From positions 310,001-374,000 of the forward strand of contig NZ_JAGJEA010000005.1 in the NCBI RefSeq assembly GCF_018100805.1: 64,000 nt of DNA, read 5' to 3'. The stretch comes from Aquimarina sp. MMG016 (lineage in GTDB: Bacteria; Bacteroidota; Bacteroidia; Flavobacteriales; Flavobacteriaceae). Below, piece after piece: positions 33,250 to 56,760 of the stretch (its first letter is position 1; each line of letters begins with the position of its first letter). The notes under the pieces were generated by a model, which was not told the DNA's origin, made no database searches, and worked only from the letters and a program-made list of their open reading frames with translations. The position numbers were made by a program, and so were the translations under genes.

Positions 33250-33307
33250 GTACCCCTAGGTGTACCCTCTATTTTTTATAGAAAAATGAATTTTATCAGT
33301 TACTTAG
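33250..33307 (+). promoter_or_regulatory. direct-repeat promoter element, regulatory cassette
   Basis: GTACCCC (33250-33256) and GTACCCT (33262-33268), period 12, then 31 bases to TTACTTAG (33300-33307), a poor -7 element. Same layout as at the LRR genes and the cytochrome c peroxidase gene. Confidence 0.6.
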
Positions 33308-33328
33308 CAGTATGATTAATTAACTATT

Positions 33329-33487
33329 ATGATACCTTTTTTGAAAAAGATATTTATCGCTGAAAAATCAAATAGTCAATTTGAGAAAATTCAGGATATG
33401 GAAATGAAGAAAAAAAAGCTAGAAGATATCCTAAATAATTTGCAAAAGATAGAAGAAGAACTAAGACAAGTAAAAAAAAGTAACTAG
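33329..33487 (+). CDS. small coiled-coil protein (52 residues)
   Basis: Frame MIPFLKKIFIAEK... to ...LRQVKKSN, ending TAG at 33485-33487, 2 bases before the next ATG. Residues 17-50 are a charged heptad-like helix (EDILNNLQKIEEELRQVKK). The spacing, the promoter just upstream and good codon use support a real gene. No family recognised; a helical partner or adaptor for the two downstream proteins is a guess. Confidence 0.6.
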   Translation: MIPFLKKIFIAEKSNSQFEKIQDMEMKKKKLEDILNNLQKIEEELRQVKKSN

Positions 33488-33489
33488 AT

Positions 33490-33900
33490 ATGGACCCCTT
33501 AAATATGTATATAATGACAGAAAACACTTCTCCTCTGTATACTCCTCCAACCTGGAAGCATCATATGAATGTAGAATATATAGAAATCGATTTTACAGGA
33601 TTGTATGAAGAAGAAGATATTATTCAATGCGTGTCAGATGCAGCTGAAATGGGACTTCAGCGACCAGATAAATCAGTTCGGGCATTGGTGTACACTAAAG
33701 GAATGAAAACAAGTCCGAAGGCCATGCGGACTATTAAAAAATTAGGCAAACTAGTACAACCCAAGCTTAAAAAGTCCGCATTGGTGGGATCTGTAGGGAT
33801 TGTGTCATTATTAATGAAAATATATATCAGTTATACAGGTAGTAAGATCAAGTTTTTTACGGACAAAGAAGCTGCTATTAAATATGTAACGAATGATTAA
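33490..33900 (+). CDS. STAS/SpoIIAA-like protein
   Basis: 136 residues, soluble. The alternating strand-helix pattern (VEYIEIDFTGLYEEEDI, VRALVYTKGMKTSP, KSALVGSVGIVSLLM, SKIKFFTDKEAAIKYV) resembles STAS/SpoIIAA-like proteins and broadly the protein at 5711. An alternative start is the second Met (codon 7) or ninth codon region. Overlaps the next gene by 8 bases. Likely a protein-interaction module of the neighbouring regulator; unproven. Confidence 0.6.
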   Translation: MDPLNMYIMTENTSPLYTPPTWKHHMNVEYIEIDFTGLYEEEDIIQCVSDAAEMGLQRPDKSVRALVYTKGMKTSPKAMRTIKKLGKLVQPKLKKSALVGSVGIVSLLMKIYISYTGSKIKFFTDKEAAIKYVTND

Positions 33901-34747
33901 TATTGATACTGAATCTACAAGTGATTATAATGAAGCTATCATATCAGTAGTTACAACTGATAAAGAATTGGAATTTATGGAGCTGTTGAAAGAGCGTAAT
34001 GTAAAGGTTCACTTGATGGATGCGATTCCTACGGATATAGAATCCTGGGAAGTAAGCCCGGATACTATTATTTTGGACAATAAGATCGATAAAGATTGGG
34101 AAAGTAAATTAGATAGTATCAGAAAAATCAGTGCTTATAAAGATATACCAGTTATTGTATTAAACAATGATGAAGTGCAGATCGAAGATGTCTTTTCTAA
34201 CTGGAACAAAGAATTTTTGTTTGTACAGCGAGAAAATTCGAAGTCAATTCTTCGAGCGGTTATGGCAACAGTGAAATATTGGAAAAGATTAAATAGCGTT
34301 TTACTTAAGACAAATCAATTGAACAGAATTTTATCAACCAACTATTTGATCCTGGATGCCAAAAATGAATGTTTAGAAAAAGTACAACAACAACTCAATC
34401 AGCTTCACACTATAATTACACCAGAAATCAAAAAAGAACTCCTGAAGATAGATGATTTAATTGCCGATAACTTAAAAAAAGGAGATCACTATCAACTGTT
34501 TAAAGCACATTTTGAAGAGGTGCATCCGTTGTTTTATAAAAAGTTACTGGCGATCAATGAAGATTTATCGAATAATGATCTCAAACTCGCAGCTTTTCTA
34601 AAGATGAATTTTAATAATTCTGAAATATCATTTTTTATGGGAATATCAATTGCCGGAGTTAAAAAAGCGATACAACGATTACGTGTAAAGCTGGGACTAC
34701 AACCTCAAGAATCGTTACGACAGTTTATATTTACGATAGAAGTCTAA
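33893..34747 (+). CDS. receiver-like regulator with LuxR-type HTH
   Basis: 284 residues. The first 120 follow a response-regulator-like alternation (AIISVVTTDKELEFMELL, DTIILDNKID, DIPVIVLNNDEV) but the acidic pocket is not canonical, so phosphorylation is doubtful. A helical linker follows, and the last 70 residues (HPLFYKKLLAINEDLSNNDL, SIAGVKKAIQRLRVKLGL) match the pattern of the HTH in the 7TM sensor at 31433. Third gene of the cassette; candidate binder of the direct repeats, including those of its own promoter. Confidence 0.7.
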   Translation: MINIDTESTSDYNEAIISVVTTDKELEFMELLKERNVKVHLMDAIPTDIESWEVSPDTIILDNKIDKDWESKLDSIRKISAYKDIPVIVLNNDEVQIEDVFSNWNKEFLFVQRENSKSILRAVMATVKYWKRLNSVLLKTNQLNRILSTNYLILDAKNECLEKVQQQLNQLHTIITPEIKKELLKIDDLIADNLKKGDHYQLFKAHFEEVHPLFYKKLLAINEDLSNNDLKLAAFLKMNFNNSEISFFMGISIAGVKKAIQRLRVKLGLQPQESLRQFIFTIEV

Positions 34748-34781
34748 AAGTTAAATGTTAAATATGATAATTAAAGACAAT

Positions 34782-34837
34782 GTCTCCCATAAGTCTCCCT
34801 TTTTAGTTTTTTTTAACAAAAGCGGATGGTAATTTTG
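34782..34837 (+). promoter_or_regulatory. direct-repeat promoter element, first LRR gene
   Basis: GTCTCCC at 34782-34788 and 34793-34799 (period 11), 30 bases, then a perfect -7 element TAATTTTG at 34830-34837. Confidence 0.7.
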
Positions 34838-35162
34838 AACCATAAAATAAAGTAAGTGAATAATATAATAATTAACCCAAATCAGAGCTAGTTAGTATAC
34901 CACTGAACTTTTAAAAGCCTAAAATCTCTATACTATGAACATCATACACTTTTTTCCTTAGAAAGAAATGAATAGAGAAGTTATTAACTTCTTGTTATGA
35001 TCATACTTTACAAGGAATTTTTCCAATAAAAGGTAGCATTTCATACTGCAATCACTTTGTACTGTGCAAAGTGACATAGGATCTTTTTTGCCAAAAGTAA
35101 AGCAACAATTACTAAGAAAATAAATAAAAACTTTTACATAGAACTTTTAATACTACCCCTTT
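34838..35162 (+). other. long structured 5' leader of the first LRR gene
   Basis: About 320 bases between the predicted -7 element and the ATG, with no credible ORF. Two hairpins: AGAAGTT-ATT-AACTTCT (34976-34992) and TCACTTTG-N7-CAAAGTGA (35052-35074). The latter is followed by ATCTTTTTT, which could act as an attenuator. CCCCTTT abuts the start codon. Confidence 0.45.
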
Positions 35163-38100
35163 ATGAAAAGAAATTTACTTAACCTATTCATTCTTTTAAT
35201 CCCGATTTGGTCTTTTGGCCAATCGTGTGGAGCTTTAATGGTTCCAATATCTATTGAAGATCGTGTAAATGAATCTACCCAAATTGTAGAAGGTGTTATT
35301 ACCAGTAGCCAGAGTTATTGGGATATATCAAAACATAATATCTATACCTTGCATACTGTAAGTGTATACGCAGATATGCTTGGTAATAGTGCTTCATCCG
35401 TACAATTTGTAACGATGGGCGGGCAGGTAGGCGATGCTATGCAAATAACTTCTAGTGAAGCTTCGTTAGAAGTTGGAGTTATAGCTACCTTTTTCTTAAA
35501 AGAAAGTGCAGTAAAACTTAGCGGCAAAAGCACTATGTATGAGCTTGTAGGAGCCGCACAAGGAGTCATAAAATATAGTAAGCGTAGCGACAGTGCATCT
35601 GATGTTTTTAACAAATATCAATCTATTACAAAAGAATTATACCCCAAAATCCAAAGAGTCACTGCCAAAAGGTTTAGAACCCTACAAAAACGCCCTACCG
35701 TTGCGGATAGAACTACTACCAATGCAAAAGCATTACTGGCAACACCCGCTATTTCTAATTTCTCGCCAACTTCTGCTAGTGCAGGTACGCAAACCGTTTT
35801 AACCATTAACGGTTCTAATTTTGGAACTGTCGCTGGTACTGTAAGTTTTCCAAATGCCAATGCGGGCGGTCTCTCCTATACAGATGCCTTAAGTTCTGAG
35901 ATTATTAGTTGGTCGGATACACAGATCCAGGTACAGGTCCCTTCGTTGGCAGGTACAGGTGCTATTCAGGTGACCAATAGTACTGCCGAAACAGGAACAA
36001 GTAATGCTAATCTTACTGTAACCTATAGTCATCTTAATGCAACATTTAGTGCAGAAGCTTTTCCAACAGCATTACAGGATGATGATGGTAATGGTGGTTT
36101 TACTTTTCAGTATCATACTGATTTTGATACCAGTAGCGCAAAATCTTATTTTGAAGAAGCCTTTGCATTATGGAACTGTGAATCTAATATCAACTTTGTA
36201 TTTGGTAGCACGACAACAACAGATGTCTCTGTAGATGACGGTGTCAATATAGTACGATTCGACAACGGCTCAGAATTACCCATTAACGTTTTAGGACGTG
36301 TCACCACACGTTTCTTAGGTAGTTGCCCAACAACAAACCGAATGGTCGTAAAGGAATTAGATGTCACTTGGAACGATGATATTAACTGGTATTACGGTAG
36401 TGGTACGCCAAGTGCTACGCAATATGATTTTAAAAGCGTAGCCTTACATGAATTAGGGCATGCGCATCAATTAGGACACGTGATTGACCCTGGTTTAGTG
36501 ATGCATTATTCTCTGGGAAGTGGCGATGTTAGCTATGCCTTAAACCAGAACGATATTGATGGCGCCACATATACCATGGGCTTATTTACAGAATCTGTTG
36601 GCTGTAGTTCAATCCCCATGACTGAACAAATCAATTGTTGTGACGATATCGTTATTAATTCTCAACCAACAGATAGTAGTACAGAAGTTGATGGTGACGC
36701 ACAATTTGTCGTTGACGCTTCTAATTTCACGCAAGTAAACTGGTTAGTAAGTGTGTCAGGAAGTAGTTTATTTTCTACGGTATCTGATAATGCCTTGTTT
36801 TCTGGCTCTAATACCGCAACCTTATCCCTGCAAAATGTACCATTGAGTTATGATGGCTATAGATTTCGAGCAGTATTACAAAATGAATGTGGTACGGAGA
36901 CACCGACAAACATTGCGACACTAAACGTTCTTGAATATACAGCTATTCCAGATGCAAATTTTGAAGCAGCTTTAAGTGCCTATGATGATATTCCTGGCGA
37001 TGGACAAGTGCCAACTGCCAATATCGAAATGTTGACCAATTTAAATGTGAGTGATGCTAACATTTCAGACCTTACTGGGCTTGAAGATTTTGTACAACTA
37101 ACAGCTTTGGATATTTCCGAAAATAATCTCACAACGGTATCTTTAAGTACACTTACGAATCTTGAAGTTTTTGAAGCCGACGCCAATTTTAATTTAACCA
37201 GTGTAGATCTATCTGGTAATACAGCACTAAGAGAAATTTCTTTAGAAGATTGTACTGCGCTTACAACTTTGAATCTCAGCACAAATACGTCATTAGAAAT
37301 TTTAAGCGCCAGCCAATCAGGCTTAGCTTCCATTACGCTTGGTAATTTGCCTAATCTAACCTCTGTCGATTTAGGTTTTACGAATGTAACGACTTTGGAT
37401 TTTTCAGCAGCTACATCATTAGTAATTCTAAATGTACCTAACTGTCAACTTACCAGTTTGAATGTCACTAATGGTAACAATACCATTATTACAAATTTTG
37501 TGACACTTAACAATCCAAATTTATTCTGTATTGCTGTAGATGATGTCGCTTTCGCGGAAGCGAACTTTACAAATATCGATGCTCAAACCAGCTTTAGTGA
37601 CACCAATTGCTATACGACAATCTCAGATGCTAATTTTGAAACTGCTCTACACAATTTAGGCTATGATGACATTTTAGGGGATGGGCAGGTACCAACGGCC
37701 TTAATTGCTGGAGTCACAACTTTGGATGTAGACAACACTGGTATCACAGATTTAACAGGTATAGCAGACTTTACATCACTCGTAAACCTTGATATTGATG
37801 ATAATAATATCAACACCGTAGATCTTAGCAATAATAAGCAACTGCAAGTGTTAGTGGCGAAAGACGCTAACATCCAAAACTTAAACCTTGATGGGTTGAC
37901 CAATTTGTATCAGATATCATTGCAATTTAATGTCATAACCAGTCTGGACTTATCTACCAATACAGCAATACGTTCTATGAATATAAGCCTTAATGAATTG
38001 ACGTATGTAAATCTGCAAAATGGAAATAACAGTATCATTACCGACCTTGATGCGCGTTCTAATGATAACTTAGAATGTATCTTAGTTGATGACGTAAATA

Positions 38101-41100
38101 TTGTGAACACAGCTAGTATTTATACGGACAGCCAAACCAACCTTTCTCAATACTGTACGTATACGGCAATACCAGATGCCAATTTTGAAACTGCTTTAGA
38201 GAATTTGGGCTATGACGACATTTCGGGTGATGGACAAGTTCCCACAGCCTTGATAGAAACGGTAACCTCTCTATTTGTAGGTAATGCTAACATTTCTGAT
38301 CTAACTGGGATCGAAGATTTTACAGCTCTGGAAACTCTAGCGGCCTTCCAGAATAATCTGACCACGCTAGATCTGTCTAACAATTTAGCATTGACCTTTT
38401 TATCAGCGCCCGACAATAATATCAGCAGTCTTGATTTAGGAACCAATACAAGCTACGAAACCATTTTTATAAGAGAAAATAATCTTTCGGAAATTGACGT
38501 CACAGGTTTTACAAGTTTAGAGTGGCTGGACTTGAAGAATAACCCCATAACTGCATTAGATGTAAGCAGTAATTTGGACTTAGCACAATTGCAATGTGAG
38601 GGTTGTAATCTGTTTAGCCTAAATATGAAAAATGGTAACAATACAAATATTTCAAACTTTGATATTGGGCTTAATCCTAATCTTACTTGCGTTTTAGTAG
38701 ATGATGCCGCCTACAGTACGGCTAACTGGACAAGTGTCGATGTACAAACTGTATTTAATGATGTGGAGTGCGCTGCTATAAGCTATATAGCCATACCTGA
38801 TGCTAATTTTGAAACTGCTTTAGGTAACTTAGGCTATGATGATATTTCTGGGGATGGACAAATACCAACAACGACAATAGAAACCCTAACCTCTCTAGAT
38901 GTAAGTAACGCCAGTATTGCTAACCTTACAGGAATTGAAGCTTTTGTGGATTTAGAATCTTTAATAGTAAATGACAATACCATTTCCAGTATCAATTTAG
39001 GCAGTAATACAAAAATAAAGATACTTAATGCAAGGAATAATGGATTGACTTCCTTAGATATTAGCACTTGTACTGATATGGATTTATTGTTATTGGAAAA
39101 TAACAGTTTAACTAGTTTGGATCTTTCAAAAAACACACAACTTACGAGAATTTGGGCTCAAAATAACAACTTTAATTCGTTTGATGTTACTAATAACCCA
39201 CTATTACGGGCTATTGGCATCAGTAACAGTAATTTGACAAGTTTAGATTTAACGAAAAATATAGCACTACAACAACTCTATGCTGCAGGCAACTCTATAA
39301 CAGAGGTTGATTTAAGTAACAGTCCAGCTATGAGAATTGTAAGCTTACATACGAATAACTTATCCAGTTTCAACATCCAAAATGGAAACAATGCGAATAT
39401 TACAGCCTTTGAATTAGCAAACAATTCCAGTCTAACCTGTGTACAGGTAGATGATGCCGCCTACAGTACTACTAACTGGACCGATGTGGATGCGCAAACC
39501 AACTTTTCAGAAACAGCATATTGTGAGTATACAGCAATCCCAGGTGCAAGTTTTGAAGGGACTCTAGAATTTCTTGGTTATGATGATATTCCTGGTGATG
39601 GACGAGTGCCAACAGCACTCATAAAGGGTATAACAACGCTATCTATTGCCGGTATGGATATTAGTGACCTAACGGGTATTGAAGATTTTACAGCTTTAGA
39701 ATATTTACAATGTAGTGATAACACGCTAACAAGCCTAGATATAAGTAGTAACACAGCATTAGAAAGACTGTATTGTAATAGAAATAGTTTAACAGATTTA
39801 GAACTTGGTTTCAATACCGTTTTAACTTCATTAAATTGCGAGGATAACAATTTAAGTACTTTAAACCTCTTAGATAGTCCTGCGCTAGAAGATATTCTAA
39901 TTAGCAATAACCCAATAACATCATTAGACTTTATAAACAATTGGGCACTGATTTCGATTACTGCTAAAAGTACTAATGTCATTGATGTTGATTTAACAAT
40001 GTTGCCTAGTTTGGAAGAAGTTGTTTTTTCTGGGAATAATATTTCTTCTTTTAATTTGAAAAATAATAACAATGGTAACATTGACAAATTTGAAGTATCT
40101 AATACACCTTCTTTATCTTGTATTTCCGTAGATGACGCTTCATATGCTACTACCAATTGGACGTCTGTAGATGCCCATGTAAGTTTTTCAGAAACCAGTT
40201 ATTGTCAATATACTTCCGTACCTGATAGTAATTTTGAAACGGCTCTAGAAAATTTTGGCTATGATGATATTTCTGGTGACGGACAGGTGCCAACTGCATT
40301 GATTTCTGGAGTTACCGATTTAAATCTTTTGGGAGCTACAGTAACAGATTTAACAGGAATAGCAGACTTTGATTCACTTACAAGGCTTCAGATTTCAGGT
40401 AATAATATAAGTACTGTAGACCTCAGCAATAATTCACAATTAGAGACGCTTACGGCAGTAGATTGTAATATACAAACCTTAAATGTTACAGGATTGACAA
40501 ATCTTAACTTTTTGTTAGTAGAGGTTAACCAATTGACGAGCTTAGACCTATCCACAACACCGGCAGTAAGTTCCATCGATTTGAGAGACAATAATCTAAC
40601 TGAATTGAACTTACAAAATGGGAACAATACCACTATTACCTCGTTCGACATCCGTTCCAATCCTGACTTAAGCTGTGTTCAGGTAGATGATGCAGCATAC
40701 AGTACAGCCAACTGGATCAATGTAGATGCGCAAACCAACTTTTCAGAAACACAGTATTGTGAATACACCGCAATTCCTGATGCAAATTTTGAAGCTACTT
40801 TAGGATATTTGGGCTATGATGATATTTCCGGTGATGGGCAAGTACCCACAGCATTGATTGAAGGGGTTACAACCTTATCCGTTATCAATATGGAGATATC
40901 TGACCTTACCGGAATTGAAGATTTTACGGCTTTGGAAGAATTGAATGTTGATACAAATTTTCTTTCTGATCTTGACCTGAGCGCTAATACCAACCTTATT
41001 AAAATTGAATGTGGCTCTAATTCCATGGATTCAATCAACCTGAATGGTTTAACAGCTTTAGAGGAGTTTGACGGTGGTTCTAATGACTATACAACATTAG

Positions 41101-43955
41101 ATTTTTCTACTAACACTAGCCTCACAAAATTATACTGTGACAGTAATGACTTAACAGCGCTTGATGTAAGTAACAATACGATACTTACCGATTTAGATTG
41201 TAGTAATAATGCATTAACGACACTTAACGTAAGAAACGGAAATAACACCAATGTCACCAACTTTAATGCTACTAACAATCCTAATTTAGATTGTATCCAG
41301 GTAGATGATGTCACGTACAGTACCACTAATTGGACCAATGTAGATGCGCAAACCAACTTTTCAGAAACAGCATATTGTGAATACACAGCAATTCCAGATG
41401 CTAATTTTGAAACGGCTCTAGCAAATTTAGGATATGATGATATTTCTGGTGATGGACAAGTACCAACAGAGCTAATAAAAACGGTAGCTTCCTTAAGCGT
41501 AAGTAGTGCTAATATCAGTGATCTTACAGGAATTGAAGATTTTACGGCTTTACGCCAGTTTTTTGTTTCTCGTAATAATCTGACTACGCTAGACCTTTCC
41601 AACAATCCTTTAATAAGTAACTTGGGAGCTAAAAACAACAATATTAGTACACTTAATCTGGGTACTAATACCAACTATCAATTAATAGATTTAAGTAATA
41701 ATAATCTGACCTCATTTGATGCGAGTAATTTTACCGGACTAGCATTACTAGAACTCAACAATAATCCGATTACGAGTATGGATTTGAGCGCTAATATTGA
41801 ATTAGGAAACTTTGAGTGCTCTGGTTGTGACTTATCAAGCCTAAATATTCAAAATGGTAATTACCTTCATATTAGCACTTTTAAAGTCCGAAATAATCCA
41901 AACTTAACATGCGTGCTGGTGGATGATGTTGCATACAGTACTGCTAATTGGACAAATATTGACGCGCAAACCAGTTTTAGCGAAACCTATTGTCTTTATA
42001 CACAAATCCCAGATGCTAATTTTGAAGCCGCTTTGGATGCTTTAGGTTATGATGATATTTCGTCAGATGGGCAAGTGCCTACAGCTCTTATTGAAGTAGT
42101 TACTAGTTTAAATTTGTTCAACAGTAATATAGCGGATTTAACAGGTATTGAAGATTTTAGAGCACTAGAATTGCTTAATCTTACAAATAATAACCTAACG
42201 TCCCTAGATGTAAGTACAAATACAAATTTAGAAGTTCTAAACTGTGAAAATAATAGTCTTACAGCCTTGGATGTAACTGCTAATGTATTACTTGAAACAC
42301 TTGTTGCTAGCGGAAACGCTTTGGGAAATATTGATGTAAGTACAAATACTTACTTAGAAATTTTATTACTTAATACCTGTGGCCTTTCCAGTATAGATTT
42401 GTCTAACAACAAATTATTATCACTAGTAGGTCTATCTAATAACCAATTAACTACCCTGGATTTTACTGTAAATACAAGTTTAGAAGATCTATATGTAGAC
42501 AATAATGAATTAGCTTTTTTAAACTTTAAAAATGGTGATAATACCAATATAAAAGCTTTTAATGCAACTAACAATTCAGAATTAGAATGCATTTTAGTCG
42601 ATGATGCTACTTATAGTACAACTTACTGGACGAATATTGATGCACAAACCAGTTTTAGTGATACTTACTGTCGTTACACGACAATACCAGATGCAAATTT
42701 TGAAGCAGCTCTAGAAGCTTTAGGTTATGATGATATATCAGGTGACGGACAAGTGCCTACAGCTTTAATAGAAACCGTAGGTTTTCTAAGTGTAAGTAAT
42801 GCTAATATTGCCGACCTCACAGGAATTGAAGCTTTTGTAGCCTTAGGAGAACTGGTTTTAACTGGAAATAATCTAACTGCGCTAGACCTTTCCAATAATA
42901 CCTCATTAGGTCTCTTAAGTGCAGCAGATAATAACATTAGTACATTCAACTTAGGAACCAATACCAATTACGAAGCCATCGTATTGAGTAACAATAATCT
43001 TACAGCATTTGATGCCAGCAATCTTTCTGTATTATCGTCTTTACAATTAAACAATAATCCGATCACTGTATTAGACTTGAGTGCTAGTACGGCTCTACAG
43101 ACATTTCAATGTTCAAATTGCGATTTGTCAAGTCTCAATGTTCAGAATGGGAACAACACAGATATGGTAACCTTTGATATTTTAGGTAATCCGAACTTAA
43201 CCTGTGTCATTGTAGATGATGCGGCGTACAGTACCACAAACTGGACTAATATTGATGTACAAACAACTTTTAGTGAAACTTCTTGTATTACAGATTATGC
43301 AGTAGCTATAAAAGCGTATGTACAAGGCGCAGCTTTGAATCCGAATGAAGGCGAAGAAAGCTTACTGCGTGATGACTTACGTGTCGCCGGATTAATACCA
43401 ACCACAAGTCCGTATACAGATGCGTTAACCTGTGATGCAACAGTATTTGATAGCACTGGAAATGATGCTATTGTCGATTGGGTTTGGGTAGAATTGAGAG
43501 ATCAAAATGATGTTACTGTAGTGATCGCAGGACAATCCGCCTTATTACAACGTGATGGAGATATCGTTGCAGTAGACGGAGTTTCTGATGTAGCATTTTC
43601 GATCGAAGCTGATGATTATTATGTCTTGATAACACATCGTAATCATTTGGGGATACGCTCGGCGAATACGGTTTCATTATCTGCTACCACCGCGATCCTT
43701 GATCTTACAACAGATACTTCGCTCATTCTTGGAGGTACCAATGCAGTTACCGAGATCAGAAATGGCACTTATGCTATGCTCGCCGGAGATGGAGATGCTA
43801 ATGGGCAAATCCAGAATACAGATATCAATACAGTAATCACCTTACTTGGTGGATCCGGATATAGTGATGCCGATATGGATATGAATGGTCAGGTACAAAA
43901 TACAGATATTAATAACCTCATGAACCCCAATGTAGGAAAAGGAGAACAATTTTAA
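35163..43955 (+). CDS. giant secreted metzincin / leucine-rich-repeat protein with dockerin-like C-terminus
   Basis: 2930 residues. Signal peptide (about 1-19). An IPT/TIG-like domain near 200-280 (ISNFSPTSASAGTQTVLTI) is followed by a matrixin-type protease with HELGHAHQLGH (His429 onward) and Met-turn VMHYS, an Ig-like domain (about 495-590), and ten LRR modules (about 592-2710), each opening IPDANFE..LGYDDISGDGQVPT and closing LNxxNGNNTN...CVLVDDA. The C-terminus has a conserved domain (AIKAYVQGAALNP, IVDWVWVELRDQND) and two calcium-type loops, GDGDANGQIQNTD and DMDMNGQVQNTD, then NPNVGKGEQF. No T9SS sorting domain is seen. Probably a surface adhesin or protease. Confidence 0.88.
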   Translation: MKRNLLNLFILLIPIWSFGQSCGALMVPISIEDRVNESTQIVEGVITSSQSYWDISKHNIYTLHTVSVYADMLGNSASSVQFVTMGGQVGDAMQITSSEASLEVGVIATFFLKESAVKLSGKSTMYELVGAAQGVIKYSKRSDSASDVFNKYQSITKELYPKIQRVTAKRFRTLQKRPTVADRTTTNAKALLATPAISNFSPTSASAGTQTVLTINGSNFGTVAGTVSFPNANAGGLSYTDALSSEIISWSDTQIQVQVPSLAGTGAIQVTNSTAETGTSNANLTVTYSHLNATFSAEAFPTALQDDDGNGGFTFQYHTDFDTSSAKSYFEEAFALWNCESNINFVFGSTTTTDVSVDDGVNIVRFDNGSELPINVLGRVTTRFLGSCPTTNRMVVKELDVTWNDDINWYYGSGTPSATQYDFKSVALHELGHAHQLGHVIDPGLVMHYSLGSGDVSYALNQNDIDGATYTMGLFTESVGCSSIPMTEQINCCDDIVINSQPTDSSTEVDGDAQFVVDASNFTQVNWLVSVSGSSLFSTVSDNALFSGSNTATLSLQNVPLSYDGYRFRAVLQNECGTETPTNIATLNVLEYTAIPDANFEAALSAYDDIPGDGQVPTANIEMLTNLNVSDANISDLTGLEDFVQLTALDISENNLTTVSLSTLTNLEVFEADANFNLTSVDLSGNTALREISLEDCTALTTLNLSTNTSLEILSASQSGLASITLGNLPNLTSVDLGFTNVTTLDFSAATSLVILNVPNCQLTSLNVTNGNNTIITNFVTLNNPNLFCIAVDDVAFAEANFTNIDAQTSFSDTNCYTTISDANFETALHNLGYDDILGDGQVPTALIAGVTTLDVDNTGITDLTGIADFTSLVNLDIDDNNINTVDLSNNKQLQVLVAKDANIQNLNLDGLTNLYQISLQFNVITSLDLSTNTAIRSMNISLNELTYVNLQNGNNSIITDLDARSNDNLECILVDDVNIVNTASIYTDSQTNLSQYCTYTAIPDANFETALENLGYDDISGDGQVPTALIETVTSLFVGNANISDLTGIEDFTALETLAAFQNNLTTLDLSNNLALTFLSAPDNNISSLDLGTNTSYETIFIRENNLSEIDVTGFTSLEWLDLKNNPITALDVSSNLDLAQLQCEGCNLFSLNMKNGNNTNISNFDIGLNPNLTCVLVDDAAYSTANWTSVDVQTVFNDVECAAISYIAIPDANFETALGNLGYDDISGDGQIPTTTIETLTSLDVSNASIANLTGIEAFVDLESLIVNDNTISSINLGSNTKIKILNARNNGLTSLDISTCTDMDLLLLENNSLTSLDLSKNTQLTRIWAQNNNFNSFDVTNNPLLRAIGISNSNLTSLDLTKNIALQQLYAAGNSITEVDLSNSPAMRIVSLHTNNLSSFNIQNGNNANITAFELANNSSLTCVQVDDAAYSTTNWTDVDAQTNFSETAYCEYTAIPGASFEGTLEFLGYDDIPGDGRVPTALIKGITTLSIAGMDISDLTGIEDFTALEYLQCSDNTLTSLDISSNTALERLYCNRNSLTDLELGFNTVLTSLNCEDNNLSTLNLLDSPALEDILISNNPITSLDFINNWALISITAKSTNVIDVDLTMLPSLEEVVFSGNNISSFNLKNNNNGNIDKFEVSNTPSLSCISVDDASYATTNWTSVDAHVSFSETSYCQYTSVPDSNFETALENFGYDDISGDGQVPTALISGVTDLNLLGATVTDLTGIADFDSLTRLQISGNNISTVDLSNNSQLETLTAVDCNIQTLNVTGLTNLNFLLVEVNQLTSLDLSTTPAVSSIDLRDNNLTELNLQNGNNTTITSFDIRSNPDLSCVQVDDAAYSTANWINVDAQTNFSETQYCEYTAIPDANFEATLGYLGYDDISGDGQVPTALIEGVTTLSVINMEISDLTGIEDFTALEELNVDTNFLSDLDLSANTNLIKIECGSNSMDSINLNGLTALEEFDGGSNDYTTLDFSTNTSLTKLYCDSNDLTALDVSNNTILTDLDCSNNALTTLNVRNGNNTNVTNFNATNNPNLDCIQVDDVTYSTTNWTNVDAQTNFSETAYCEYTAIPDANFETALANLGYDDISGDGQVPTELIKTVASLSVSSANISDLTGIEDFTALRQFFVSRNNLTTLDLSNNPLISNLGAKNNNISTLNLGTNTNYQLIDLSNNNLTSFDASNFTGLALLELNNNPITSMDLSANIELGNFECSGCDLSSLNIQNGNYLHISTFKVRNNPNLTCVLVDDVAYSTANWTNIDAQTSFSETYCLYTQIPDANFEAALDALGYDDISSDGQVPTALIEVVTSLNLFNSNIADLTGIEDFRALELLNLTNNNLTSLDVSTNTNLEVLNCENNSLTALDVTANVLLETLVASGNALGNIDVSTNTYLEILLLNTCGLSSIDLSNNKLLSLVGLSNNQLTTLDFTVNTSLEDLYVDNNELAFLNFKNGDNTNIKAFNATNNSELECILVDDATYSTTYWTNIDAQTSFSDTYCRYTTIPDANFEAALEALGYDDISGDGQVPTALIETVGFLSVSNANIADLTGIEAFVALGELVLTGNNLTALDLSNNTSLGLLSAADNNISTFNLGTNTNYEAIVLSNNNLTAFDASNLSVLSSLQLNNNPITVLDLSASTALQTFQCSNCDLSSLNVQNGNNTDMVTFDILGNPNLTCVIVDDAAYSTTNWTNIDVQTTFSETSCITDYAVAIKAYVQGAALNPNEGEESLLRDDLRVAGLIPTTSPYTDALTCDATVFDSTGNDAIVDWVWVELRDQNDVTVVIAGQSALLQRDGDIVAVDGVSDVAFSIEADDYYVLITHRNHLGIRSANTVSLSATTAILDLTTDTSLILGGTNAVTEIRNGTYAMLAGDGDANGQIQNTDINTVITLLGGSGYSDADMDMNGQVQNTDINNLMNPNVGKGEQF
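36937..43289 (+). repeat. ten-module LRR array
   Basis: Modules begin near 36937, 37609, 38158, 38783, 39526, 40207, 40762, 41380, 41995 and 42673, each 550-745 bases, built of about 21-residue LRRs of the form LTSLDLSNNTALxxLxxxxNN. By internal pattern modules 2 and 6 pair, 5 and 7 pair, and 3, 8 and 10 form a third group. Confidence 0.85.
43290..43955 (+). repeat. C-terminal duplicated block, copy 1
   Basis: 666 bases aligned without gaps to 46108-46773 in the next gene. The last 250 bases differ at only about three positions, far closer than the LRR parts of the two genes. Confidence 0.9.
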
Positions 43956-44026
43956 TGATCCTATTGATATAAACCACGATAGAGATATGAAGTCAAACGC
44001 CAATAAAACAAGCAGATACCGCCCTA

Positions 44027-44084
44027 GTACCCCCACGTGTACCCCTTGTTTTATTGGTTAGTTAAAGAACAACGTATACTATTG
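44027..44084 (+). promoter_or_regulatory. direct-repeat promoter element, second LRR gene
   Basis: GTACCCC at 44027-44033 and 44039-44045 (period 12), 31 bases, then TACTATTG at 44077-44084, one mismatch from TAnnTTTG. Confidence 0.7.
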
Positions 44085-46773: not shown

Positions 46774-46807
46774 TAAAACCATTGATAAAACAAAGAGATA
46801 TAAAATT

Positions 46808-46863
46808 GTCTCCCAATTGTCTCCTTTTTTTATTGATTAGTAAAACAACAATATATACTATTG
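46808..46863 (+). promoter_or_regulatory. direct-repeat promoter element, third LRR gene
   Basis: GTCTCCC at 46808-46814 and GTCTCCT at 46819-46825 (period 11), 30 bases, then TACTATTG at 46856-46863, the same -7 octamer as the second LRR gene. Confidence 0.7.
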
Positions 46864-46922: not shown

Positions 46923-49900
46923 ATGAATAAAAAATACTTTTTACGAATCCTGTTTTTTATTAGCATTACTACTAGCTATGCTCAGTATACCAGTATTCCT
47001 GATGCTAATTTTGAAGCCGCATTGGTATCCTTAGATGATATACCTGAAGACGGAAGAATTCCAACAGGGAATATTAATAGCATAACTTCATTAAATGTTG
47101 CCAATAAAAACATTAGTAGTTTATCAGGTATCGAAGATTTTGATTCGTTAAAGCAATTAACGGCTAACGGAAACTCATTAACTAGTATAGAGGTAAGTAA
47201 TCTTACAGACTTAGAGGAGTTGATAGTATATGATAATCAGATTAGTTCAATTGATTTATCCAATAATTTGAATTTAATTGAAATTGATGTATATAATAAT
47301 CGATTATCAAGTTTAGATATCTCACAAAATACTTCAATCGTAAATGTTTTTGCCGATAGTAATTCAATTACAAGTTTAGATGCAACAGAAAATACATTTT
47401 TAGAACGACTTGACGTTAGCAATAATAATTTGTCTTCATTAAATATTAAGAATGGGAATAACACTGGTATAAAAAGTTTTGGAGCTACTGGAAATGTAAA
47501 TTTAAGTTGTATAGTTGTTGATGATATTTCTTATGCAGAATCAAACTTTACTAATATCGATAGTGGAGTGAGTTTCAAGATCACAAGTTGTGATCACATT
47601 TCTATTCCTGATGCCAATTTTGAAGCCGCCCTTAGTGCTTATGACGATATTGCTGCGGATGGTCAAGTTCCTATCGCAAATATTCAAAATTTAACTTCTT
47701 TAAATATAGCTAATAGCAATATCAGTAGTTTATCAGGAATTGAATATTTTACCTCATTAACCCAATTAATAGCTAATGGTAATTTATTAACTACAGTTGA
47801 TGTAAGCGATTTAACAGCGTTAGAAGAATTGATTTTGTTTGAAAATCAAATTATATCTATTGATTTGAGCAAAAATGTAAATCTAATCGAATTAGACTTT
47901 TTTGGAAATTCATTAGCCAGCATAGATCTTTCGCAAAATATAGCACTTCAAAAAGTATTTATTGATAATAACGTATTAACAGCATTAGATCTTTCAAATA
48001 ATCCTGCTTTAAAACGACTTGATGTCAAGAATAATAATTTATCGTCCTTAAATATTAAAAATGGAAATAATACAAATATTACAGGATTTGGAGCTACAGG
48101 AAATACAAATTTAAAATGTATTTTGGTGGATGATGTATCGTTTGCTCAGGCAAACTTTACTGGTATTGATGCTGGAGTGGTTTTCAATACAGTTAACTGT
48201 GATTATATAAGCATACCAGATTCAAATTTTGAGTCAGCCTTGTTCGATTTAGGTTATGATGATGTCTCGGGAGATGGCCAAGTACCAACTGATTTAATTA
48301 GCGGATTAACCTCGTTAAATCTAGTGAGTAAAAATATTGCAGATGCTACTGGAATCGAAGCATTCGTTGCTTTAGAAGAGTTAAATATTTACAGTAATAA
48401 TTTAACAAGTATTGATATAAGTTCAAATACTCAACTCAAACATCTGAGATGTCAAAACAACCAAATCACATCGTTAGATGTTACTTCGAATACATTGCTT
48501 GAAACCCTAATATGTGATCATAACCCATTGACAAGTTTAGAGGTGTCACAGAACACATTGTTGAATAATATTAATGTTTCCAGCACTTCAATAAGAACAA
48601 TTGATCTTTCTAATAATACAGCTTTAACTGTTTTAACTGCAGAGGATATGATATTGTTATCCCTGGATGTAAGTAGCAATCCGTTGCTAGAAGAAGTATC
48701 GTTAATAAACGGGGATTTTATCAGTATTAATTTAAAGAACGGAGGGAATACCAATGTCGTGGACATATATCTTGATGGTAATACTAGCTTAAACTGCGTG
48801 TCTGTTGATGATGTTACGTATGCAACCACAAATTGGACGGATATTGACGATTCAAGTGTATTTACTACTGATGCTTGTATAATTAATTACACTTTAATTC
48901 CGGATTCAGCTTTTGAAACGCGTTTATACGATTTAGGTTATGATGATATTAGCGGTGATGGTCAGGTTCCTACAGCATTAATCCAATCAGTTACAAACTT
49001 AGATTTAAGTAGCTCAGCAATATCAGATGTAACTGGTATTAAGTATTTTACATCTTTAGAAATTTTAAATGTTTCTTCAAATGCGATTATAAATTTAGAT
49101 TTAAGTGGAAATACGGTAATTAAAGAAATCTACGCAGAGCCGTCAAATGCTGATACTATCAATGTAAGTAATATGACAGCTTTAGAAATAGTACACTGTA
49201 ATAGTGCAAATTCTTTAACTACCTTAACACTTACAGGAGCTACAAGTTTAAAGGAATTAAGTATTTATAATACAGTAAATCTTACCAGTTTAGATGTAAG
49301 TACCAATACAGCATTAGAAAAAATAACCAGTTATAGTAGTTCTTTAACAAACTTAAATACTACGGGGGCTATAAGTTTAAAAGAGTTACAACTCAATACA
49401 TCACAAATCTCGAGTTTAGATTTGAGTACAAATACGGCTTTAGAAATAGTGAATGCAAATAGCTCTGCTTTATCTTCAATCAACATCAATGGAGCCACAG
49501 CACTTAAAGAGTTATATGTGTATCAAACACTAATTTCATCGCTAGATGTTTCAACAAATACGGCATTAACTAAGTTGCATTGTTACGGTTCAGGAGGGTT
49601 AACTTCGTTGGATCTTTCAACCAATACTGCTTTAACAGATATACAATGTCAAAATACAGGCATTACTAGTTTAGATGTTTCAACAAATGTAAATTTAGAA
49701 ACGCTTTATTGCCAAAATAATGCATTAACAGATATCAACTTAAAAAATGGAAACAATACCATTCTTACCGATTTAAATATCACAAATAATAGTGAATTGG
49801 CATGTGTTCTGGTTGATAATGTAGTTTATGCAAATACCAACTTTACGAATGTTGATAGCAATGTAACGTTTACGGTAACAGATTGCGGATATACACAAAT

Positions 49901-51362
49901 ACCGGATGCAGAGTTTGAAGCTGCATTAGCTTTTCTTGATGATATTCTGGGTGATGGTCAAGTACCTTCAGCCGCTATTGGAGGTCTAGTAAACTTAAGC
50001 TTTAGGAATAATGAGCTAATATCAGATTTTACAGGGATAGAGGCTTTTGTGAGTTTAGAGCGTTTTAGTTATATAACATCTGGTACTATAACAAATTTAG
50101 ATTTTTCTAATAATCGTAACCTTACAAGTGTAACTATAGCAAATAATAATATAACATCCATCAATCTCACCCAAAATACATTACTAGAAAATATAAGCCT
50201 CAGGGGGAATAATTTGTCCGAAATAGATCTTTCTCAAAATGTATTATTAACCGATTTAACATTAGATAATAACGCTAACCTTACAGCAATAGATTTATCT
50301 AACAATACTACTTTAATTAATTTATCCGTTGGTAGTTGCTCATTATCTAGTGTAGATCTCTCAAAGAATCCCTTGTTAACTTATGTTTACATTGGAGAAA
50401 ATGACTTAACGAGTATTGATGTAAGCAACAATTTGTTACTAAAAGACCTTTATATTTATGATAATCCAATTGAAGGGTATTTAGACCTTAGTAATTTAGA
50501 AGACCTTGTTGAGGTAGATTTTAGTAATTGTGAAGTAACTGCTATAAATCTTAAAAATGGGAATAATGAAAACATCACTTATTTTGATGCTACCAACAAT
50601 CTAAATTTAACCTGTATTCAAGTAGATGATGCTACCTACGCCACTACAAATTGGACTAATATTGACAATACAACGAGTTTTAGTGAAGACTGTGGTTATG
50701 CAATAACAGTTGCTCCCAAAGTATTTTTACAAGGAGCAAAGACCAATCCAATTGCCGGAGAAGAAAACTGGATGCGTGATGACTTAAGAACGTCAGATTT
50801 TATTCCGACGACTAGCCCATATACCGATGCACTTACCTGCGATGCCTCCGTGTTTTTGAGCACAGGTAGTGATGCTATCGTAGATTGGGTGTGGATAGAG
50901 TTGAGAGATAAAAATGATCCCACCATAATTATAGAAGGACGATCCGGATTACTGCAAAGAGATGGTGATGTTGTCGCGGTAGATGGTACATCGAGTCTTG
51001 AGTTTTCAGCCTCATCAGACGCCTACTATGTAATGATCACACACCGCAATCACCTTGGGATTCGTTCTGCCAGTACTGTTACATTATCATCCACAGGTAC
51101 AACTATTGATTTTACAAACGATACATCGCTTATTGAAGGAGGAGCTAATGCGGTCGTTGACCTGGGAAGTAGTTCGTTTGCGATATTGGCAGGAGACTAT
51201 GACGAGAATGGTCAGATCCAGAATTCTGATATTAATGCTGTAATTTCCTTCTTAGGTAATTCTGGATATAGTAATGCAGATCTGGATATGAATGGTCAGA
51301 TTCAGAATTCTGATATTAATAATATTTTAAATCCTAATGTAGGAAAAGGAGAACAATTTTAA
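46923..51362 (+). CDS. large secreted leucine-rich-repeat protein with dockerin-like C-terminus
   Basis: 1479 residues from ATG 46923. The frame is open back to 46782, but that stretch covers the promoter, and the signal peptide YFLRILFFISITTSYAQ begins right after this ATG, nearly identical to that of the preceding gene. Five LRR modules, the first two a tandem pair (ISSLSGIEDFDSLKQLTANG and ISSLSGIEYFTSLTQLIANG). The C-terminal domain (VFLQGAKTNPIAGEENWMRD) and loops GDYDENGQIQNSD and DLDMNGQIQNSD are diverged from the other two, but the last residues NPNVGKGEQF are identical. No T9SS sorting domain. Probably co-transcribed with the T9SS protein 20 bases downstream. Confidence 0.88.
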   Translation: MNKKYFLRILFFISITTSYAQYTSIPDANFEAALVSLDDIPEDGRIPTGNINSITSLNVANKNISSLSGIEDFDSLKQLTANGNSLTSIEVSNLTDLEELIVYDNQISSIDLSNNLNLIEIDVYNNRLSSLDISQNTSIVNVFADSNSITSLDATENTFLERLDVSNNNLSSLNIKNGNNTGIKSFGATGNVNLSCIVVDDISYAESNFTNIDSGVSFKITSCDHISIPDANFEAALSAYDDIAADGQVPIANIQNLTSLNIANSNISSLSGIEYFTSLTQLIANGNLLTTVDVSDLTALEELILFENQIISIDLSKNVNLIELDFFGNSLASIDLSQNIALQKVFIDNNVLTALDLSNNPALKRLDVKNNNLSSLNIKNGNNTNITGFGATGNTNLKCILVDDVSFAQANFTGIDAGVVFNTVNCDYISIPDSNFESALFDLGYDDVSGDGQVPTDLISGLTSLNLVSKNIADATGIEAFVALEELNIYSNNLTSIDISSNTQLKHLRCQNNQITSLDVTSNTLLETLICDHNPLTSLEVSQNTLLNNINVSSTSIRTIDLSNNTALTVLTAEDMILLSLDVSSNPLLEEVSLINGDFISINLKNGGNTNVVDIYLDGNTSLNCVSVDDVTYATTNWTDIDDSSVFTTDACIINYTLIPDSAFETRLYDLGYDDISGDGQVPTALIQSVTNLDLSSSAISDVTGIKYFTSLEILNVSSNAIINLDLSGNTVIKEIYAEPSNADTINVSNMTALEIVHCNSANSLTTLTLTGATSLKELSIYNTVNLTSLDVSTNTALEKITSYSSSLTNLNTTGAISLKELQLNTSQISSLDLSTNTALEIVNANSSALSSININGATALKELYVYQTLISSLDVSTNTALTKLHCYGSGGLTSLDLSTNTALTDIQCQNTGITSLDVSTNVNLETLYCQNNALTDINLKNGNNTILTDLNITNNSELACVLVDNVVYANTNFTNVDSNVTFTVTDCGYTQIPDAEFEAALAFLDDILGDGQVPSAAIGGLVNLSFRNNELISDFTGIEAFVSLERFSYITSGTITNLDFSNNRNLTSVTIANNNITSINLTQNTLLENISLRGNNLSEIDLSQNVLLTDLTLDNNANLTAIDLSNNTTLINLSVGSCSLSSVDLSKNPLLTYVYIGENDLTSIDVSNNLLLKDLYIYDNPIEGYLDLSNLEDLVEVDFSNCEVTAINLKNGNNENITYFDATNNLNLTCIQVDDATYATTNWTNIDNTTSFSEDCGYAITVAPKVFLQGAKTNPIAGEENWMRDDLRTSDFIPTTSPYTDALTCDASVFLSTGSDAIVDWVWIELRDKNDPTIIIEGRSGLLQRDGDVVAVDGTSSLEFSASSDAYYVMITHRNHLGIRSASTVTLSSTGTTIDFTNDTSLIEGGANAVVDLGSSSFAILAGDYDENGQIQNSDINAVISFLGNSGYSNADLDMNGQIQNSDINNILNPNVGKGEQF

Positions 51363-51382
51363 AAAACAAATACCCCTTACTT

Positions 51383-54470: not shown

Positions 54471-54895
54471 TGATGATGAAAGAATTTATACTAAAACATA
54501 GATTGTCAATAACATTAACATTGTTTTATGCATCTGTGTTTTATACGATTGTACGATTATCTTTTGCTTGATTAGATAATCTATATGCTGATCATGTTTC
54601 TTGTATTAAAGAGTTAAGGGGCTTTATATAAGGAAAAAATCATTAGAAAATCAGCGACGATGGCTGCCTGGAACTTGTTTTTCGGGCAGTCTTTTGTAAT
54701 GAAGAAAATTAGTCATAAAAGTTTTAAAGTTTGATACTTTCTTTGACTTTGATACTTATTCTAAAAAAAATCAATAATCTGATAGAGCAGCGCTTATAAG
54801 TTTTTTTTATGATTGCCTCATCCTGAAAAACAGTCCTCTAGAAGCAACCTATTTCCAGTTTTTGCATCCATAAGATAACCACACAACTAAAACAT
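54470..54895 (+). other. gap without a clear gene
   Basis: 424 bases. A 33-codon frame at 54470-54571 (MMMKEFILKHRLSITLTLFY...) overlaps the upstream stop codon but has no other support. A weak hairpin CTGCC/GGCAG near 54664-54690 followed by TTTT may end the upstream transcript. Nothing else recognised. Confidence 0.4.
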
Positions 54896-55369
54896 ATGAA
54901 GCAAATATTTTTTCTACTATCCCTATTTTTTATGGTTTCCTGCAGTAATGATGATACTGACCCTTGCTCTGTAGGCGTATTAGATACATCTACCGATATA
55001 GGTTTACAAAATTTATTCATAGAGTTAGTTGACACTGAAGGAAACAATCTTATCGAAAACGGTACATATAGTGCAAATGACATCTCTATAAGTTATAATA
55101 ATTCTATAATTACAGGTGTTGTTTTCCAACAAGTTCAATCTATTCAGTATTTTATTATCATGAACATTTTTGGACAGGAAGGAGATAATATTTTTTTAAT
55201 TAACTTAAATGATACTGAAACCGATACTCTAATATTAAACCTCAGCATTGAACCAGGTGACCTTTGTTTACCTGATTTCAGAAAACTAAATGCAGTAACT
55301 TATAATGAAATCGAGCAAAATATTGAAGATTTTGAAGGTGAAAACAAAATTACCGTGATAAAACCATAA
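54896..55369 (+). CDS. hypothetical lipoprotein
   Basis: 157 residues. Signal peptide with lipobox MVSCSNDD (Cys16) and acidic residues directly after the Cys, which in Bacteroidota favours outer-membrane or surface placement. The body is beta-strand-rich with no recognised family; three further cysteines (DPCSVG, DLCLP region). Convergent with the cytochrome c peroxidase gene across two hairpins. No link to neighbours can be shown. Confidence 0.6.
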   Translation: MKQIFFLLSLFFMVSCSNDDTDPCSVGVLDTSTDIGLQNLFIELVDTEGNNLIENGTYSANDISISYNNSIITGVVFQQVQSIQYFIIMNIFGQEGDNIFLINLNDTETDTLILNLSIEPGDLCLPDFRKLNAVTYNEIEQNIEDFEGENKITVIKP

Positions 55370-55411
55370 CATAGTTTTAGATCAATCCGTTATATATTAA
55401 AAAACAAAAAA

Positions 55412-55471
55412 CCGTCCTATTATAGAACGGCTCCTTAATCCTGGTTAATATTCCCCCTTGCGATATTAACC
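55412..55471. terminator. tandem hairpins between convergent genes
   Basis: CCGT-CCTA...-ACGG stem at 55412-55430, followed on the minus strand by TTTTTTGTTTTTT, so a good terminator for the peroxidase transcript. A second stem GGTTAATAT/ATATTAACC (55443-55471) lies between it and the peroxidase stop codon. Confidence 0.75.
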
Positions 55472-55485
55472 AAATATATTATGAT

Positions 55486-56676
55486 TTAATTTATAAAAGG
55501 ATTACTCCATTTTTCATCAGTATATATGTTGGTTCCTGACAATGTCTTTAAAAAAGCTTCTAAAGCAGCTATCTCATCATTAGTAAGATTTAGGTTTTGA
55601 CCATTTCCTCCCGGACCACCAAGCAAACGATTATCCAGACTTGGGTTTCCAGTAGGGTCAATATTATCATAATGATTAATCACTTCTGCAATAGATCCCA
55701 TACTAGCATCGTGCATTAACGCTCCGTTAAGTACACCTGCATTATTTACAATATCTCTTAGAGAAGGAGATCTCGTAACATCAAAATCAGAAGCTCCTGC
55801 ATCTCCAAAAACTCCAGTAACTCCATTATTGAGGCTTTGAGGGTCTATGGAAAAATCAGGTGCTCTATGACAGGTAATACAACCCGCTCCATTTTGATTA
55901 GGAGGATTTACAAAAATTCTCTTTCCTAAGTTTTCCTGTGCAGTAAAATTTGGAAAATCCTGATTGTCATTTGGTATAACTGCCCTTCCGGCATCATATT
56001 TGGCATCAAAAGATTGAATACTACGTATAAATTGTGCTAAACACTCTTGTAATCTTTCCTCAGTAATCGTTGTATTTCCATAAGCAAACTGAAAGAGATC
56101 GTCATAATATTCAATCTCGCTCAATTTAGTAAGTAAATCGGCCAACCCTGAATCTCCATCCTGTCCGCTAAAGCCCATTTCGGCATGATCCTGTATTGGT
56201 TGAGTTGTTTGTGCTTCTAATGTATTTGCTCGCTCATCCCAGAAGAATCGGGTTTCATCAGAAAATCTCGCATTGACCAATCTCATACTATGTCTCCCTG
56301 TCACCCCATTAACTCCAGTACTTACATCATCATTATCTCCAAAAGCAAAGGCTTGTTTATGGCAACTCGAACAAGAAATAGTGTTATTAGTAGATAGATT
56401 TTTATCATAAAACAAAACTCTTCCTAATGTAGCTTTAGCATCTGTAATAGCATTACCGTCGGTATTATCTCTGGTAATATATGTCGGAATCGTTTGATTG
56501 GCATAATTAGCTAAATTGTTTAAATCTAAATTCTGACCAAAAGTTTCCTGAAATACTGAAGAGGTAATAATTGGATCCTCTTCTTCAGTCACAATTGGAA
56601 TATATTCATTTTCTTCATTAGAACATCCCACAATAATTAATGCGATGAACGCCATCCATAGATTTCTTACTTTCAT
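55486..56676 (-). CDS. di-haem cytochrome c peroxidase (MauG/CcpA family), lipoprotein
   Basis: 396 residues. Lipobox IALIIVGC (Cys18). Two haem c sites: SCSSCHKQ (about 102-106) and GAGCITCHRAP (about 266-270), with the family landmarks LGRVLFYDKNLS and FFWDERANTLEAQTTQPI between and LMHDASMGSIAEVINHY and LTNDEIAALEAFLKTLSG near the end. Reduces hydrogen peroxide with electrons from cytochromes, or acts as a MauG-like oxidase. Downstream of the TonB receptor on the same strand but separated by 170 bases that hold its own direct-repeat promoter. Confidence 0.92.
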   Translation of the reverse strand: MKVRNLWMAFIALIIVGCSNEENEYIPIVTEEEDPIITSSVFQETFGQNLDLNNLANYANQTIPTYITRDNTDGNAITDAKATLGRVLFYDKNLSTNNTISCSSCHKQAFAFGDNDDVSTGVNGVTGRHSMRLVNARFSDETRFFWDERANTLEAQTTQPIQDHAEMGFSGQDGDSGLADLLTKLSEIEYYDDLFQFAYGNTTITEERLQECLAQFIRSIQSFDAKYDAGRAVIPNDNQDFPNFTAQENLGKRIFVNPPNQNGAGCITCHRAPDFSIDPQSLNNGVTGVFGDAGASDFDVTRSPSLRDIVNNAGVLNGALMHDASMGSIAEVINHYDNIDPTGNPSLDNRLLGGPGGNGQNLNLTNDEIAALEAFLKTLSGTNIYTDEKWSNPFIN

Positions 56677-56702
56677 ATTTTGGGTTTAATAGATTTGGAA
56701 AT

Positions 56703-56760
56703 CAAATATATCACAGGATACGATTTATACCTAATATACAAGGGGTACAATTAGGGGTAC
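56703..56760 (-). promoter_or_regulatory. direct-repeat promoter element, cytochrome c peroxidase gene
   Basis: On the minus strand, GTACCCC at 56760-56754 and 56748-56742 (period 12), 31 bases, then the perfect -7 element TATATTTG (56710-56703), 26 bases before the ATG. Same architecture as at the LRR genes. Confidence 0.75.

Follow-up and report, generated by a model that had tools for sequence, protein, structure and literature searches.

A stretch of 64,000 nucleotides from Aquimarina sp. MMG016 (contig NZ_JAGJEA010000005.1, positions 310,001 to 374,000; hereafter the window) carries five head-to-tail repeat pairs upstream of promoters. Sequence comparison makes it quite probable that each pair is the activator operator of a linked regulator with a divergent LuxR/GerE-like helix-turn-helix (HTH). 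The pairs connect a regulatory cassette, three leucine-rich repeat (LRR) genes and a cytochrome c peroxidase gene, as noted in a preliminary description of this DNA. That description had proposed one shared promoter element. The link to promoters stands, whereas the pairs are better described as two operators with different heptamers, drawn from a larger set that varies by regulator.

Repeat pairs and promoter geometry

All five pairs are present where they had been placed; in two of them the second copy departs by a single base. Exact copies of GTACCCC-N5-GTACCCC occur at 44027 (+) and at 56742-56760 (-), and at 33250 the second copy is GTACCCT. GTCTCCC-N4-GTCTCCC is exact at 34782, and at 46808 the second copy is GTCTCCT (one mismatch). 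The element is wider than first described and consists of two head-to-tail copies of roughly TTG plus five variable bases, spaced by one helical turn (period 10-12).

Repeats of this kind are more frequent than in shuffled intergenic DNA. The intergenic DNA of the window (28 segments, 6,200 bases) contains five GC-rich 7-mer repeats of period 10-12, compared with a mean of 0.065 and a maximum of 2 in 1000 exact dinucleotide shuffles. With three mismatches allowed, the GTACCCC pattern has five matches in the window, a number reached by none of 100 window shuffles; the GTCTCCC pattern has two, which 20 of 100 shuffles also reach. In the whole genome (5.35 Mb), GTMYCCC-N4/5-GTMYCCC, the joint pattern, is matched exactly four times, at 34782, 44027 and 56760 of the window and at C33:152547, and the 33250 pair is recovered with one mismatch allowed. 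The sole exact match outside the window is part of another giant-LRR cluster, with an LRR gene exceeding 2,000 aa, and lies 82 nt upstream of a 54-aa open reading frame (ORF) resembling the 52-aa ORF at 33329; the next large gene encodes a TPR-HTH regulator. The repeat is thus tied to a gene neighbourhood and not solely to LRR promoters. The predicted genome-wide enrichment of the exact motif did not materialize across the family: GTACCCC pairs number 11 in 397 family genomes, 3 of them in the genome of the window, and the 8 in the other 396 genomes compare with 7 in a backward control. The GTACCCC heptamer itself is not conserved across the family, so that a genome-wide test works only per regulator.

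The spacing to the -7 box is as previously stated, the proximal TTG position lying 40 nt (33250, 44027, 56760) or 39 nt (34782, 46808) from the box. Compared with TAnnTTTG, the boxes TATATTTG and TAATTTTG match at 6/6 positions and TACTATTG, found twice, at 5/6. The box after the 33250 pair, TTACTTAG, is a poor match; a similar one, TTATTTAG, occurs at the same distance before the same type of small gene at loci L098 and L106, and also at L104. A coupling of the shorter period to a shorter spacer, suggested from the five promoters, fails in relatives, where about 40 nt separate the proximal TTG from the -7 box whether the period is 10, 11 or 12. When the proximal TTG position is used as the anchor, 28 sites (at most one mismatch, -7 box at 39-41 nt) have a period of 10-12, and the 20 periods 8, 9 and 13-30 have none; the same test on 20 control stretches yields 0 and 1, respectively. 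A -7-like box is found at 39-41 nt in 30 of 53 exact TG-anchored repeats, a set in which both strands are counted and some members are the wrong strand of a palindromic-looking repeat. Box matches at these three distances number 31 (22 at exactly 40), compared with 21 in total at the other 62 distances between 16 and 80. The flavobacterial -7 consensus TAnnTTTG is placed at -12 to -5 (PMC9723704, in excerpt), which puts the half-sites near -52 and -62, immediately upstream of -33. Start codons mostly follow 62-108 nt after the proximal TG. The activator-like placement recognized earlier is therefore borne out, the fixed distance upstream of the core promoter being that of a class I/II-like activator.

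Linkage to regulators and their recognition helices

The genome of the window contains further heptamers of the same arrangement: TGTCCAC beside C29:64545, TGTAGGG three times near C28:469189, and TGACACC (period 10) beside C33:171265. The three TGTAGGG pairs have period 12, and the region concerned (G000:C28:422-465 kb; L070, L071, L038) encodes large secreted proteins that share the C-terminal ~220 aa of the LRR genes. Across 24 regulator neighbourhoods of the same genus, 33 intergenic repeats of period 10-12 were observed in 118.7 kb, compared with 1 in 66.5 kb of control DNA (20 stretches, 16 arbitrary and 4 from the same genome as the window; binomial p 7e-6); at the other periods of 8-40 the counts were 21 and 11. 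The 22 neighbourhoods from other genera gave 24 repeats in 87.4 kb, compared with 1 in the 24.0 kb of 8 arbitrary stretches; at other periods the counts were 29 and 6. These counts keep a few repeats clearly of another type (for example GCCATGG and GGCTTCA). A site lies within 5 kb of 45 of the 67 close regulators (score of at least 115 with the A3 profile) and within 600 nt of 32, compared with 0/165 control ORFs of at least 300 aa from 24 arbitrary stretches; because tandem regulators share sites, the 67 are not independent cases. The same holds within 5 kb for 8/24 middling and 4/6 remote relatives.

TGACACC-N3-TGACACC has 15 matches in 37 whole genomes (control 1), 13 of which are inside regulator cassettes in 7 genomes; the remaining two lie elsewhere and lack a -7 box. 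The regulator with the recognition hexamer KSMRRR, found in 8 genomes, is accompanied by the TGACACC pair in all of them, in the eighth with one mismatch. In L108, L110, L111, L113, L114 and L116, the TGACACC or TGCCACC operators are preceded at 16-37 nt by another repeat of period 10, TACGTA-N4-TACGTA, which is imperfect in L110 and is possibly a further tandem site. The TGCACCC pair of period 12 has 8 matches in the 397 family genomes compared with 4 in the control: three lie 21-100 nt after the HTH of a close regulator, two elsewhere in one such genome, and three are unlinked.

Across genera, the heptamer tends to track the recognition helix of the regulator. Each regulator was paired with the nearest same-strand site at most 500 nt downstream, which gave 32 regulators with 18 distinct hexamers. 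Hexamer identity and heptamer identity correlate with r 0.42, a value equalled by 1 of 20000 permutations, in statistics that ignore ancestry. Two other versions, one using three hand-typed rows and one the whole domain, both gave r 0.32 (38 of 20000 and 1 of 5000, respectively). KS[ST]RFR is paired with TGCACCC in four genera (G402, G414, G320, G313, G156), RKSR[YH]R with TGTCC[GC]C in three, and KTSRFR with TGAACCC in two. KSMRRR pairs with TGACACC, and KKARHR and KKARYR, from two distant paralogues of the genome of the window, both pair with TGTCCAC. KK-I hexamers go with TGTCTCC (the window protein P0003; L102) or TGTCACC (L154). The second hexamer residue was also set against T as third base of the heptamer (9/10 vs 3/10, Fisher p 0.02), a comparison picked post hoc.

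This variation bears on the possibility that the pairs are operators of another, unlinked protein, such as an OmpR/PhoB-type response regulator. Boxes of that type, for instance those of PhoB, are 7-bp direct repeats with 4-5 bp spacers. Form and position of the sites would fit, as the example of KdpE illustrates (PMC3264566, in excerpt), but the heptamers vary by cassette and follow the linked HTH, and the conserved ones are confined to regulator cassettes. Since a single unlinked protein would not account for this, we regard this explanation as unlikely.

Regulators, small proteins and proposed mechanism

The regulatory cassette encodes two candidate regulators, P0001 and P0003. P0001 matches 7TMR-DISM_7TM of Pfam (E 7e-16) and has the recognition hexamer KKSRSR. 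P0003 has no match in Pfam or NCBIfam, including its N-terminal half, and its single-sequence structure model is uninformative (pLDDT 37). The C-terminal HTH of both recurs at 12 more places in the genome, 14 altogether. GerE (PF00196) appears in 6 of 8 relatives at E 2.6e-4 to 0.07, all below the Pfam gathering cut-off of 23.5 bits (best scores 21.0 and 20.9 bits). The A3 profile retrieves a VraR chain (2rnj, E 8e-4), but a designed protein, 6msp, scores equally (7e-4). Modelled from its sequence alone (pLDDT 65), the P0001 domain has its helices in the order expected for a LuxR-type, four-helix HTH. In a Foldseek search with this model LuxR-type domains rank top, but all with E above 0.8 and TM of at most 0.48. 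From these similarities we infer that the shared domain is a divergent LuxR/GerE-like HTH. The front ends of family regulators elsewhere are 7TM, TPR or Y_Y_Y. Beside the TPR regulator, L096, L105, L108, L113 and L114 encode a further, short HTH protein of 192-254 aa; by eye, some of these proteins are membrane-anchored, and in many cases a separate site precedes or follows the gene. Distant HTH regulators of the Y_Y_Y type (about 936 aa; L180, L182, L184, L185) have their own period-11 repeats near the gene (TGTTGAGG, TGTTGTGG, TTGTAGTGG), a sign that this mode may be more widespread.

Features of the window, in order of position except for the last operator, its box and its gene
Feature	Positions	Strand	Evidence
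P0001, regulator: 7TMR-DISM 7TM domain, helical linker, predicted C-terminal LuxR/GerE-like HTH	31433..33151	+	Pfam, paralogues, profile
Predicted operator 1: TTGTACCCC-N3-GTGTACCCT, period 12, 98 nt after P0001	33248..33268	+	
Weak -7-like box TTACTTAG, 40 nt from proximal TTG position	33300..33307	+	
P0005: 52-aa heptad-rich protein, coiled-coil-like	33329..33487	+	Similar ORFs directly after sites at 10 other loci
P0002: SpoIIAA-like (STAS-fold) protein	33490..33900	+	Pfam SpoIIAA-like E 1.8e-6; same order in G423 (L094)
P0003: C-terminal HTH of P0001 type, hexamer KKAIQR	33893..34747	+	
Predicted operator 2: (T)GTCTCCC-N4-GTCTCCC, period 11, before LRR1	34780..34799	+	Identical sequence in G423 (L094:12278)
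-7 box TAATTTTG of LRR1	34830..34837	+	
LRR1: 2930-aa LRR protein, matrixin and TIG domains	35163..43955	+	
Predicted operator 3: GTACCCC-N5-GTACCCC, before LRR2	44027..44045	+	
-7 box TACTATTG of LRR2	44077..44084	+	
LRR2: 876-aa LRR protein	44143..46773	+	
Predicted operator 4: TTGTCTCCC-N2-TTGTCTCCT, period 11, before LRR3	46806..46825	+	
-7 box TACTATTG of LRR3	46856..46863	+	
LRR3: 1479-aa LRR protein; alternative in-frame ATG 36 nt upstream possible	46923..51362	+	
Predicted operator 5: TTGTACCCC-N3-TTGTACCCC, period 12, before peroxidase gene	56742..56762	-	
-7 box TATATTTG of peroxidase gene	56703..56710	-	
Di-haem cytochrome c peroxidase (MauG-type), lipoprotein-like	55486..56676	-	Pfam CCP_MauG E 7e-43

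A 157-aa lipoprotein-like ORF with no Pfam match (54896-55369) lies between the genes for an Ig-domain protein and the peroxidase.

P0005 was missing from the program-made list of ORFs, which had an 80-aa limit. ORFs of 49-64 aa are located right after sites in 11 loci from 8 genomes and 5 genera (the window, L006, L035, L094, L098, L106, L166, L167, L168, L169 and L175, of which L169 and L175 are the weakest). Their common pattern, in an alignment judged by eye, comprises a basic start, heptads and ...L..IE..LK..., and reads as coiled-coil-like. The putative family is one that gene finders overlook, and as a guess its members might be feedback partners of the regulator. At L194 (G407:C1:477383), a regulator and a paired site with a -7 box at 41 nt are followed by an 82-aa ORF whose sequence resembles that of a RiPP precursor carrying a GG leader.

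We infer binding, the sign of activation, dimer geometry, sensed signals and small-protein feedback from these comparisons, and the predicted mechanism is as follows. Two HTH domains would dock head-to-tail on the same DNA face, one per TTG+5 half-site, just upstream of -33, and would help RNA polymerase use the TAnnTTTG promoter in a class I/II-like activation. P0001 would read TGT[A/C]CCC upstream of its own downstream small-protein operon, LRR2 and the peroxidase gene, while P0003 would read TGTCTCC at LRR1 and LRR3. The proteins encoded at 31433 (P0001) and 33893 (P0003), named in the preliminary description as binders to be assayed, are the best candidates for GTACCCC and GTCTCCC, respectively. 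A TGTACCC site lies 98 nt after P0001 and a TGTCTCC site 35 nt after P0003. Genome G423 has the same order of genes and sites, with TGTCCCC and TGTCTCC, and a P0003-like gene occurs together with a period-11 TGTCTCC site in both the window and G423. The assignment of the targets to P0001 and P0003 follows this shared order.

Several observations weigh against linked operators read by such regulators. There is no site within 5 kb of 22 of the 67 close regulators, and no exact repeat at 16 of 46 regulator loci, of which four (L100, L110, L163, L166) have one-mismatch sites. The control stretches are unmatched for gene type, orthologous cassettes are non-independent, and the loci of the genome itself were partly picked for sites. 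A degenerate TGTMYCC pair of period 12 shows no excess in 37 genomes of the genus (13 matches vs 10 in the control). Six of the 13 are regulator-linked (three in G000, two in G423, one in G407) and five are chance-like; the others are in G428 and G429, which carry the C33 19-mer with no regulator detected by the A3 profile within 3 kb around it. The hexamer KKSRSR is found with TGTACCC in the window, with TGTCCCC in G423 and with one of each in G179; the match is thus not one-to-one, and one base is loose. A partner protein with an unrelated helix, QLLREQ, also adjoins TGACACC. Finally, the HTH assignment is weak, P0001 and P0003 having no Pfam HTH match and the Foldseek search with the P0001-domain model returning nothing at E 0.001 or better.

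The same regulators might instead act as repressors, bound without signal and released by it. The sequence does not fix the sign, and regulator-adjacent sites could autoregulate either way. However, in every case read the site stops about 10 bp short of -33 on its upstream side and leaves the core promoter free, which is the usual place of an activator, and repression therefore seems improbable. The promoters of LRR2 and LRR3 are homologous around the -7 box yet their heptamers differ, as if the operator had been exchanged. A perfect 13-nt inverted repeat (44000-44012, 44045-44057) flanks the LRR2 operator and is absent from the other 38 sites tested. Both features might suggest recombination or inversion sites that shuffle or switch LRR genes. 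We consider this very unlikely, since the inverted repeat accompanies only 1 of 39 sites (next longest 10), and a fixed -7 distance with regulator-specific heptamers is unexpected of such sites. Chance repeats in AT-rich intergenic DNA, to which the GTCTCCC pattern alone would be open at three mismatches, are refuted almost beyond doubt for the set as a whole by shuffles, controls, period and -7 distance.

A broader scenario is a real but tentative possibility. In a family of membrane-linked flavobacterial regulators, the recognition helix may have diversified together with the paired half-sites, so that every surface-protein cluster came to have an operator of its own within a common promoter frame. 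The six-residue helix stretch would then be a readable protein-DNA code (KS[ST]RFR for TGCACCC, KTSRFR for TGAACCC), and the protein of about 50 aa would be the feedback partner of the helical linker of the regulator. Regulators and operators of giant flavobacterial surface proteins are little known. If true, the rule makes it possible to predict the regulator of a given surface cluster purely from sequence, and provides a natural helix-operator series for testing the evolution of HTH specificity.

Comparison with known systems

The domain shows a weak profile similarity to the NarL/GerE (LuxR) HTH, which a designed protein equals, and the helix order of its pLDDT-65 model would fit. It differs in its context, as P0001 and P0003 contain no canonical receiver domain by Pfam and the family has the front ends listed above. 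NarL sites are mostly inverted repeats. No description of the present motif or regulator family was found in the open-access literature searched, most subscription journals being outside the search.

The other systems are compared from excerpts of the papers cited. In Bacteroides, SusR-like and hybrid two-component system (HTCS) regulators lie beside the genes that they control and have predicted direct-repeat motifs, which are alike to the extent that the DNA-binding domains are (Ravcheev et al. 2013, PMC3878776). They resemble the present family as Bacteroidetes regulators located beside their targets, with direct-repeat sites. However, the spacing is 67 or 77 bp between SusR-like centres and about 21 bp for HTCS sites (PMC3878776), the targets are sugar-use genes, and HTCS bear an AraC-type HTH. 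The 67/77-bp spacing is not seen in our pairs, which have period 10-12, although no search was made for another pair at a distance of 67-77 bp, and neither an AraC-type HTH nor a histidine kinase was detected in P0001 or P0003 with Pfam and NCBIfam.

KdpE binds two direct half-sites one turn apart, of 6 bp with a 5-bp spacer (PMC3264566), but does so through a winged helix, with a phosphorylated receiver and at AT-rich sites. P0001 and P0003 have no Trans_reg_C or receiver match in Pfam at E 0.01. PimR and other SARP-LAL regulators recognize directly repeated heptamers separated by 3-4 nt (period 10-11), and binding requires two of them (PMC5930380). These are likewise one-turn heptamer repeats upstream of the core promoter, but PimR, from Streptomyces, binds via its SARP domain and not a LuxR-type HTH; neither P0001 nor P0003 has a Pfam match to the SARP domain.

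MilO, a LuxR-family activator of the mildiomycin genes of Streptoverticillium rimofaciens, binds head-to-tail repeats of the consensus TGTC(N)3CGGT (PMC11784345). Unlike our pairs, these are three repeats of 11 bp separated by 2 nt (13-bp period) and lie 142 bp before the start, and the system is actinobacterial. MilO is nevertheless a LuxR-family, pathway-specific activator whose TGTC consensus is close to the TGTCC heptamers described here.

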